Positions 24,172 through 27,659 of a stretch of 58,549 nt of DNA are shown here, one piece after another; position 1 is the stretch's first letter; every line of letters starts with the position of its first letter. The position numbers were made by a program, and so were the translations under genes. The stretch comes from an uncultured Acetobacteraceae bacterium (lineage in GTDB: Bacteria; Pseudomonadota; Alphaproteobacteria; Acetobacterales; Acetobacteraceae). Under the pieces are notes generated by a model, which did no database searches, had not been told where the DNA came from, and saw only the letters and a list, made by a program, of their open reading frames with translations. The stretch spans positions 1 to 58,549 of the forward strand of contig CALMVT010000280.1 in NCBI GenBank assembly GCA_937873175.1, given 5' to 3'.

Positions 24172-25866
24172 ATGAGTGCGGGAATGAACAAGCTTGCGCC
24201 CAGCAATCATGGCAGCGGGGTGCGTGGCGACACGATGCGCCGCCGTTCCTCCATGTTCGAGGGCCGCTTCGGCCGCATGTTCCGCAACCTGCCGCCGGCT
24301 GCCTGGCCGGAGGACGCGCTGCACGCCCTGGGCGATGCGATGCTGGCGTCGCCGGAAGCGACGGACACCACGCCCCCGCTGCCCAAAGCCTCCCCGGAAA
24401 CGGACGCCATCCTGCAGGACGACGAGGAGAACAGCGGCATTTCCGCCGGCTACACCTACCTCGGCCAGTTCATCGACCATGACATCACCTTCGACCCGGC
24501 CTCCAGCCTGCAACAGCAGAACGACCCGGACGGGTTGGTGGACTTCCGCACGCCCCGGCTGGACCTGGACTCCGTGTATGGGGGAGGTCCCGATGACCAG
24601 CCCTACATGTATGATGGCAAGCGGTTCCGGCTCGGCCGGCCGCTGCTGGAACTGGACCAGCCCAGCCCCCGCCGCGACCTGCCGCGCTACGACGATCCCG
24701 AGGTCCCGTCCCGCGCCAAGCGGGCGCTGATCGGAGACCCGCGGAACGACGAGAACGTCATCGTTTCGCAACTGCACGCCACGGTGCTGCAATTCCACAA
24801 CCGCCTGGCCGACCTCAACCCGGGCCTTGCGTTTGCGGAGGTGCAGCAGCTTGTCCGCTGGCATTACCAATGGATCGTGGTCAACGACTTCCTGGTGCGC
24901 ATCTGCGGCGAGGAGGTGGTGGACGAAATCCTGCCCTATAGGCAGGCAGCCCGGCCTGCCTGGGAAAAGGAGCCGAGGCTGCGGTTCTACCGGCCCCGAT
25001 ACGATGCGTTCATGCCCATCGAATTCTCCGCCGCGGCCTACCGCTTCGGCCATTCCATGGTCCGGCCGATCTACCGCCTGAACACGGAGCTCCACGGCGG
25101 CGACAACCCGCTGCTGGCGACGCCGGATGAGATCGAGCGTGGCCTGCAAGGGCGGTTCTTCATCTTCGCAGGGGTCCAAACGCGCGGCCTCAACGGCTTC
25201 GGGGCATTCCCTCAGCAATGGGCCATCGATTGGAGCCTCTACTTCGACATTGACGGCTCCGGCGGACGGGGCGGCACCAGGCGCGTGCAACCGGCCTACA
25301 AGATCGACACGTCGCTGGTGAACCCGCTTGGCTTCCTGCCCGAGTTCTCGAAAACCGTCCCTGCCTCGCCGCCGCTGACCGTGGACCAGCTTCAGGCCAA
25401 GCCGGTTGACCCCGAGCGCAACCCCGCCAACCTGGCCGCCCGCAACCTGCTGCGCGGCATGGCCATGGAACTGCCGAGCGGACAGGCGGTCGCCGACGCG
25501 ATGGGGGTCCCGTGCGTCCCCGACGAGCAGCTTTTCATAGGCAAGGCCATTGTCGATGAGCTGACGAAAAGCCCCAAGCTCGTCGACATCGACCCGAGCT
25601 TCGCGGGTAGCGCGCCGCTCTGGTATTACGTGCTGGCGGAAGCGCAACACGAGTGGCTTGCCCGCGCCACCGGACCCGGCGGCAAGGGCGACGCGGAACC
25701 GGTCCGGCTTGGCGCGGTGGGCCGAAGGATCGTCGCCGAAACGCTGATCGGCCTGCTGGCCGCAGATGGGCGTTCTTACCTACGGCAGAATCCGAACTGG
25801 CAACCGGTGATCGCGGGGCAGCCGATCCGCACGATGGGCAGCCTGCTCAAGTTCGCGTCGGGCTGA
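24172..25866 (+). CDS. Animal-haem-peroxidase family protein
   Basis: This 564-residue protein belongs to the peroxidase-cyclooxygenase superfamily. The distal His lies in [16 protein letters not shown]. The following region [12 protein letters not shown] is typical of the bacterial branch. The proximal His lies in [19 protein letters not shown]. No signal peptide is evident, so it is cytoplasmic or exported by an unrecognised route. Such proteins use peroxide to oxidise halides or organic substrates, or act as dioxygenases. Bacterial members of this length are often genomic islands of secondary-metabolism or defence character, but their function here is unknown. The start follows AGGGAG. It is convergent with the ROK-type gene. 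Confidence 0.87.
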
Positions 25867-25887: not shown

Positions 25888-26487
25888 CTACTCGGCGCCG
25901 GACCAGTTGCTGAAGCGCGCGTTGCCCAGCCCGGTGCCGATGGTCATCACGCCCCAACGCTCCACGTCGCGCATGAACGGCACCTCGCTCAAGCCTTGCA
26001 CCACCACGTCGTTGTGCATCAGCACCACCGTTTCGTGCCCGCCGATACCCGGGATGGCGTCCCGCAGCAGTTGGGGCAGGTTGAAGCTCTTGTGCTCCCA
26101 ATCGCCGGGCAGGTTCTGCCCACCCTTCTTGATCGACCTGTCCTCCCGGATCAGGCCGGGACAGCCGAGGCCGATGAACGGCGCCAGGTTCAGCCCTTGC
26201 TTGCCCGCGCGCTTGATCAGGCCCTGCAGCATGCCGACCAAGCGCTCGACCGCCGCTTCCCGGTCGGGTTGGTCGTCGGCATGACGCCACAGCTCCGACA
26301 TCAGGACGCCTGCCTTTGACAGGTCGGGAGCTTTCCGCACGTTCAGCCCGACGATGCCGACCCGGATGTTGGAGCCGCCGATATCGACGGCCAGGATGCT
26401 GTCATGGCCCGAGAAGATCCATGACGGCGCCAGATGGATGCAGCCGATCAGCCCGGCCTCGTCGGGATGGTGCCGGATCGGCTGCAT
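25888..26487 (-). CDS. ROK-type sugar kinase, N-lobe half (downstream piece of split gene)
   Basis: This reading frame (199 codons) contains the first half of an ordinary ROK kinase. It has the phosphate-1 loop AVDIGGSNIRVGIVG, then GLGCPGLI, the catalytic-Asp segment VLMHNDVVVQGLSEV, and the phosphate-2 loop MTIGTGLGNA just before the stop. Before the DIGG motif it has PIRHHPDEAGLIGCIHLAP, which corresponds to the last helix of a ROK protein. The frame lacks a convincing start: the ATG at 26487 has no ribosome-binding site and lies 7 nt past the stop of the upstream piece. I read it as the C-terminal portion of one permuted, now frameshifted protein with 26495-26953. Substrate probably a hexose; polyphosphate or ATP donor unknown. 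Confidence 0.7.
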   Translation of the reverse strand: MQPIRHHPDEAGLIGCIHLAPSWIFSGHDSILAVDIGGSNIRVGIVGLNVRKAPDLSKAGVLMSELWRHADDQPDREAAVERLVGMLQGLIKRAGKQGLNLAPFIGLGCPGLIREDRSIKKGGQNLPGDWEHKSFNLPQLLRDAIPGIGGHETVVLMHNDVVVQGLSEVPFMRDVERWGVMTIGTGLGNARFSNWSGAE

Positions 26488-26494
26488 GGCGACC

Positions 26495-26953
26495 TCATGC
26501 TCCGACCCTCTTCAGCAGCACCGCGGTGCGGCCGATCGCCAGCTCGCCGACGCAGCTGTCGCGCAGGCCGCCGCCGACCACGATGCGCTGCGTGTCGCGC
26601 CACTCCTCCAGCCGCATGAAGCGGCGGATCACCGTTGCGAACTCCTGGGCGAACTCCTCGATTGTGCCAAGCACCACGCCCGCCGCTTCCGGATCGCCGT
26701 CCTGCATCACGCGGTCGAGCTTCTTCTTGCTGATGTCCTCGCTCGGCGTGCTGCCGATCGGGTCGCCGCAGCCGTCCCGCACGCGCTCCCGCCCGTCCTC
26801 CAGGATGGCCCGGAACGCCCGCCCGCTCGCGCGGTCACCGATGAATCCGCCCTCGTCGCGCAATTCGGCGTTGTAGGTGTCGATGTGCACGGTGGCGAGC
26901 TTTCCCGCGCCATGGCCGGCGAGGCCGGGGCTCTGTGTGCTTGGGGTCGACAT
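26495..26953 (-). CDS. ROK-type sugar kinase, C-lobe half (upstream piece of split gene)
   Basis: This 152-codon frame encodes what is normally the C-terminal half of a ROK kinase. A helical region runs from KLATVHIDTYNAELRDEGGF to FATVIRRFMRLEEW. It is followed by the glycine-rich strand RIVVGGGLRDSCVGELAIG, the equivalent of the FIAGGG segment near the end of polyphosphate glucokinases. It stops at LLKRVGA. In the other frame the missing end of the fold continues at once (PIRHHPDEAGLIGC). Removing one G near 26500 would join the pieces into a protein of about 350 residues. In this family member the C-lobe therefore precedes the N-lobe. The gene is either broken here or carries a sequencing error. 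Confidence 0.7.
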   Translation of the reverse strand: MSTPSTQSPGLAGHGAGKLATVHIDTYNAELRDEGGFIGDRASGRAFRAILEDGRERVRDGCGDPIGSTPSEDISKKKLDRVMQDGDPEAAGVVLGTIEEFAQEFATVIRRFMRLEEWRDTQRIVVGGGLRDSCVGELAIGRTAVLLKRVGA

Positions 26954-27089: not shown

Positions 27090-27509
27090 TCACTTGGCGC
27101 GGGTCATCTGCCCCCGGATCTCGCCCGCCGGATTGGCGGCGGTATGCACGTTGGCATACCACTTGCCCGCCATCAGGTCGGCCATCTGCGCGTCCGTCAG
27201 CGTGGCGGTTCCCTTGATTGGGCTGGCCGGCGTCGGGAACGGCACGACCACTCCGGCATTCGCCCCAGAATCGGCCGGGCCGTGGAAATGCGCGGCGGTC
27301 GCGGGGCCGGACAGCCCGGAATACTCCACGTTGTAGGTCAGCGTCTTGGACGCGGTATCCAGAGACGCCGTGGCCGCTCCCGTGCCGGCGGTGGTTTTGG
27401 GCGGGACTTCGCTGGCGCCCGCCAGCGTGGCGCTGAACGGCACCGTTTCGGCGCGGGCGGCGGCGCTGAACAGGCACAGGACGCCCAGCAGCAACATGAA
27501 ACGCGGCAT
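27090..27509 (-). CDS. Exported CHRD-domain protein
   Basis: This 139-residue protein has a signal peptide (RFMLLLGVLCLFSAAARA) and one CHRD domain: FSATLAGASEVPP at its start, then LTYNVEYSGLSGPATAAHFH in the centre and WYANVHTAANPAGEIRGQM at its end. CHRD domains are beta-sandwiches found in chordin and in many small secreted bacterial proteins of unknown function. The start at 27509 has GGGAG nine bases upstream. It is a single-gene unit, divergent from the alpha/beta hydrolase, and ends with a strong hairpin. Confidence 0.9.
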   Translation of the reverse strand: MPRFMLLLGVLCLFSAAARAETVPFSATLAGASEVPPKTTAGTGAATASLDTASKTLTYNVEYSGLSGPATAAHFHGPADSGANAGVVVPFPTPASPIKGTATLTDAQMADLMAGKWYANVHTAANPAGEIRGQMTRAK

Positions 27510-27659
27510 CTCGCTCTCCCTTTGTCGTTGAGCAGCCAGCATGGACCGACTCTGCGGCCATGTCAGGGGGGCCACGGCCGACGGCGGTGGACAATGGCCG
27601 CGGCAGGGTGCTGGATGATGGAGCGGCCACGCCGCGCCTGGACTTGACGGAGCACAGCC

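Follow-up and report, generated by a model that had tools for sequence, protein, structure and literature searches.

A frame-broken copy of a probable circularly permuted ROK kinase in an Acetobacteraceae genome and its intact relatives

The DNA analysed here is a 58,549-nucleotide stretch (the window) from an uncultured Acetobacteraceae bacterium (contig CALMVT010000280.1). Taken as a whole, the evidence is best explained if one of its genes is a frame-broken copy of a naturally circularly permuted family of ROK kinases, a reading in which we have high confidence. In such a protein, the old C-terminal helix would be fused to the old N-terminal strand via a short linker. The start and end of the chain, judged from the sequences and a structural model, would now lie within the beta-hairpin that comes next to the phosphate-2 loop on its far side, leaving the two-lobed kinase fold unchanged but with the chain broken at a different place. 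Known natural permutations of other protein families have joined old termini, new termini in a surface hairpin, and a fold that is kept. The permuted ROK family resembles them in its joined ends, its predicted surface-hairpin termini, and a fold that appears to be kept. We found no description of a permuted ROK or a permuted ASKHA sugar kinase in the literature searched (open-licence papers only), and a naturally permuted ROK kinase appears not to have been reported there.

Two reading frames in the window and one in its relatives

The gene lies on the minus strand and is read in two pieces. ORF1 (26495..26953, minus strand; 152 aa) carries RIVVGGGLRDS and matches positions 178-246 of the Pfam ROK profile. 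It corresponds to the end half of an ordinary ROK protein (the rest of lobe II, with the adenosine-motif strand) and here comes first in the chain. ORF2 (25888..26487, minus strand; 199 aa) is in another frame, open from 26511, and carries DIGGSN, CPG, HND, and GTGLG. It comprises the last helix of lobe II, the linker, and then the ordinary start half, and it matches profile positions 2-139. The first-pass annotation had described ROK motifs in an order reversed by halves, and the motifs are indeed where it placed them, on the minus strand, in ORF1 and then ORF2, with the order of the Pfam profile reversed.

The frame breaks at 26488..26511 (minus strand), where ORF1 stops at 26495 and alignment to an intact relative, L009, places one extra base near 26510. 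The window copy and the L009 gene share 92.3% DNA identity, with this one base extra in the window, and the third codon position accounts for most of their other differences (22 at position 1, 13 at position 2, and 47 at position 3). Against the L009 protein, ORF1 shows 90% identity to the N-terminal part and ORF2 95% identity to the C-terminal part. Without the extra base, L009 is open throughout. Since both halves form one uninterrupted protein in more than 80 loci of other genomes, the two-frame split is a local frame break peculiar to the window copy. As it stands, this copy would yield two truncated peptides; it has therefore either been inactivated recently or contains an assembly error. 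The window genome is a draft of 624 contigs.

The first-pass annotation had proposed a search for unsplit homologues in this order, and such homologues proved abundant. A scan of GTDB genomes returned 120 encoding stretches; we kept 80 loci, whose single open frame encodes a protein of about 350-390 aa. The kept loci come from Acetobacteraceae, Bradyrhizobium, Methylobacterium, Phyllobacterium, Rhizobium, Bosea, Steroidobacter, many Variovorax, and one Labilithrix MAG. Among 398 sampled Pseudomonadota genomes, with the window's own genome not counted, 21 carry a full-length copy (E < 1e-100; three of these 21 matches report one internal stop). Two full-length permuted copies are present in each of genomes G257 and G274. 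Matches were also found in 206 plasmid records, nearly all rhizobial; where a gene is listed, it is mostly annotated as a 'ROK family protein', and one plasmid match is in two pieces. No match to the permuted kinase was found in PHROGs or phage records.

Family members are at least 48% identical to L009, and this cohesiveness suggests a single origin. No intermediate between ordinary and permuted ROK proteins was seen among the sequences collected. On two rhizobial plasmids (p42c of R. etli, locus L168, and a plasmid of R. leguminosarum, L089), the permuted kinase gene and otsB are close to repABC, and this closeness may help explain why the pair is found on many rhizobial replicons.

Evidence for the permutation and alternatives to it

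Sequence profiles follow the rotated order. Against the Pfam ROK profile (PF00480, curated cut-off 22.9 bits), the two halves of the window copy scored 15.8 and 16.8 bits when searched separately, both below the cut-off. When the halves were swapped in silico, they gave one match of 28.8 bits, above the cut-off and covering profile positions 2-246. An intact relative also exceeded the cut-off (31.8 bits). For L009, the best ROK stretch in natural order covers only profile positions 179-292, and the rotated protein gives one stretch covering 2-292 of 294.

We then aligned the 48-member permuted family to ordinary ROK proteins with hhalign. In natural order, residues 187-358 aligned to ROK residues 5-154, with 72-178 aligned as a separate piece to 204-303. 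In rotated order, a single alignment ran from 6-354 on ROK residues 5-303 (E 9e-13). The natural order also gave a single alignment, through the junction, to a tandem ROK-ROK construct (72-358 on 204-462, E 1.9e-13). In a scan of rotation points, the hhalign score rose from 75 to 96 with the cut at residues 157-187. The ordinary ROK order, with the DIGGT-bearing lobe I first and the GGG strand and GxxGAA helix last, is reversed in all intact homologues. The swapped motif order is far beyond chance, since 48 diverse intact homologues keep it.

An AlphaFold model of L009, built with 48 aligned sequences, was confident (pLDDT 94.3, pTM 0.91). Residues 182-350 of the model superpose on residues 1-142 (or their counterparts) of solved ROK proteins, with human ManNAc kinase as the best match (Z 13.8, rmsd 1.9 Å over 147 residues). 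Foldseek, a sequential aligner, returned partial alignments only, as expected of such a method. The N-terminal half would be ROK lobe II, judging from the sequence profiles and the confident model of the whole protein. The claim of circular permutation is thus upheld by sequence profiles, by profile-profile alignment in natural, rotated, and tandem order, and by the structure of the model. The new termini, which had been placed after the GTGxG loop, do appear to lie beyond it, though their exact site is predicted to be inside the beta-hairpin that follows.

We considered three other explanations for the unusual order. The two ORFs could be independent genes for the two subunits of a split kinase, and each does have its own possible start codon. 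This is very unlikely, given that all other loci compared encode one chain, including one that is 95% identical and from which the window differs by one extra base at the junction. Lobes of the actin-like superfamily resemble each other, and some sequential structural alignments reach across both lobes, with DnaK, MreB, and hexokinase as partners (Z about 9, rmsd 3-6 Å), as they might if this were an actin-like protein of ordinary lobe order that only looks rotated. Such a protein, however, would not be expected to have its phosphate-1, CPG, ND, and phosphate-2 motifs in a second half that is closest to ROK lobe I and superposes on it at Z 13.8 and 1.9 Å, or a first half that aligns by profile to the ROK end, and we regard this explanation as extremely improbable. 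As for an assembly chimera of two ROK fragments, which a draft in 624 contigs might invite, complete plasmids and more than 80 other genomes, including many isolates, have the same order; this refutes the idea, and we give it next to no weight.

Active site and comparison with known kinases

Conservation was counted in an alignment of 48 diverse intact homologues, and positions below are on the minus strand of the window. Across all 48, DIGG-N, CPG, NLPGxW, HND, GTGLGN, and GGG show little or no variation. Reading along the chain, the adenosine motif GGG (26567..26575) is invariant (48/48). It is followed by AGLIG (26443..26457), which alignment identifies as the GxxGAA-type helix that ends ordinary ROK proteins. 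The linker between the old C-terminus and the former first strand, read from the sequence, is PSWIFSGHDSILAV (26386..26427); around it, the L009 model has a helix at 177-181 and then a strand at 185-191. The phosphate-1 loop DIGGSN (26368..26385; D, I, G, G, and N invariant) comes next, followed by the invariant CPG (26155..26163), the N-lobe substrate-side segment QNLPGDW (26098..26118; N, P, G, and W invariant), and the invariant HND (26008..26016) with the presumed catalytic aspartate. The phosphate-2 loop GTGLG (25924..25938), also invariant, is near the new C-terminus.

The first-pass annotation had stated that all catalytic motifs are kept. This holds for the phosphate, catalytic, and adenosine motifs but not for the ExGH sugar-contact motif or the zinc-binding cysteines, which are absent. 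The region corresponding to ExGH reads HGAxxLPSVxVD, with a near-invariant His14-Gly15 (26909..26914) and an alignment uncertain by 1-2 residues; at the ExGH positions themselves, E18 is found in 24/48 homologues and the GH positions are P/S. A family-specific motif, FIGDRAS (26825..26845), has invariant F and G, with D in 47/48. The CxCGxxGC zinc motif is missing, and the CPG cysteine is the only one conserved among the 48 homologues.

In ROK kinases, the motifs retained here bind phosphate and metal and provide base catalysis, and ExGH contacts the sugar; ExGH and CxCGxxGC are present in many, though not all, members. Since the phosphate, metal, and base residues are retained and ExGH is lost, phosphotransfer has likely been kept and sugar specificity changed. 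The intact protein would bind ATP or polyphosphate between its lobes, and the HND aspartate would activate a sugar hydroxyl for phosphorylation, at a sugar site presumably modified because ExGH is missing. With both ExGH and the zinc cysteines gone, sugar kinase activity is not assured. We came across neither an enzyme assay nor a solved structure of any family member.

The predicted fold and most catalytic motifs are those of a ROK kinase; the differences lie in the order of the chain and in part of the sugar site. Compared with ROK kinases (PF00480; e.g. the N-acetylmannosamine kinase domain of human GNE, 2YHY), the permuted family shares the lobe I fold, the DIGGT-like phosphate-1 loop, CPG, the ND segment, the GTGxG loop, and GGG. 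In contrast, its halves are swapped, it lacks ExGH and the zinc cysteines, and it gives a full-length profile match only when rotated. Among the ordinary ROK proteins collected, ranked by score against the rotated profile, the best were alphaproteobacterial and polyphosphate-glucokinase-like, and the top one (L095, 37.9 bits) is from the window's own genome. This closest unpermuted relative found (contig 414, locus positions 1435-2226) is an ordinary-order, PPGK-like ROK that starts at the end of an ORF reading like ribose-5-phosphate isomerase. Polyphosphate/ATP glucokinases (NF045942; 1WOQ) and L095-like ROKs have the same NDxxxQGL-type catalytic segment and short lobe II without the zinc motif as the permuted family; unlike it, they are in ordinary order and about 240-265 aa long. 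The nearest NCBIfam model to ORF2 was also polyphosphate-glucose phosphotransferase (NF045942), at 23.9 bits against an equivalog cut-off of 250, and ORF1 had no match.

Neighbours, stress promoters and role

Clustering of conserved neighbours identified no operon common across genera, so context gives no clue to the substrate other than otsB and NAGGN in Rhizobiaceae. The permuted kinase gene is divergent from otsB (trehalose-phosphatase) in Rhizobium and Shinella, and from the peptidase gene of the osmoprotectant NAGGN system in Sinorhizobium. In the window, a 564-aa ORF on the plus strand (24172-25866) that reads like an animal-type haem peroxidase is convergent to the kinase gene. The upstream neighbour (27090-27510, minus strand) reads like a small secreted CHRD-domain protein. 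Homologues of both adjoin the intact copy in L009 as well.

Of 29 Hyphomicrobiales copies, a set that includes close relatives and so is not fully independent, 15 have a perfect GGAAC-N16/17-CGTT 60-101 bp upstream; this is the published EcfG1 motif of R. etli (PMC3892343). Among random 300-bp stretches drawn from these loci, 1.05% contain it. Neither the window copy nor the beta- and gammaproteobacterial copies showed it upstream. Judging from these promoters, the Hyphomicrobiales gene would belong to the EcfG general stress regulon.

The best-supported, and most likely, role is that of a hexose kinase of the general stress response with links to trehalose or osmoprotectant metabolism. In Hyphomicrobiales, the enzyme would probably phosphorylate glucose or a related hexose in that metabolism under stress, a proposal we hold at about even confidence. 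The main rival keeps the permuted ROK fold but has it no longer act as a sugar kinase; its part in the general stress response would instead be that of a sensor or regulator, or would involve a substrate other than a sugar. Loss of ExGH and the zinc cysteines, gain of the family-specific HG and GFxGD motifs, and stress promoters without a conserved metabolic operon would all fit this, yet all 48 homologues retain the catalytic aspartate and the phosphate-1, phosphate-2, and adenosine motifs without change, and no DNA-binding or other domain is fused to the protein. We consider it rather unlikely. A broader proposal, that this is a widespread, unrecognised permuted branch of ROK proteins whose remodelled sugar site (ExGH lost, HG and GFxGD new) now serves an enzyme or sensor of the general stress response that has a new substrate, is put forward only tentatively.

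The intact family, found across alpha-, beta-, and gammaproteobacteria, is a clean case for studying how new chain ends beside a phosphate loop are tolerated by an enzyme that has two lobes, closes about a hinge, and belongs to the actin/hexokinase/Hsp70 fold. In rhizobia, where the annotation is 'ROK family protein' only, the stress-type promoters make its physiological role testable.
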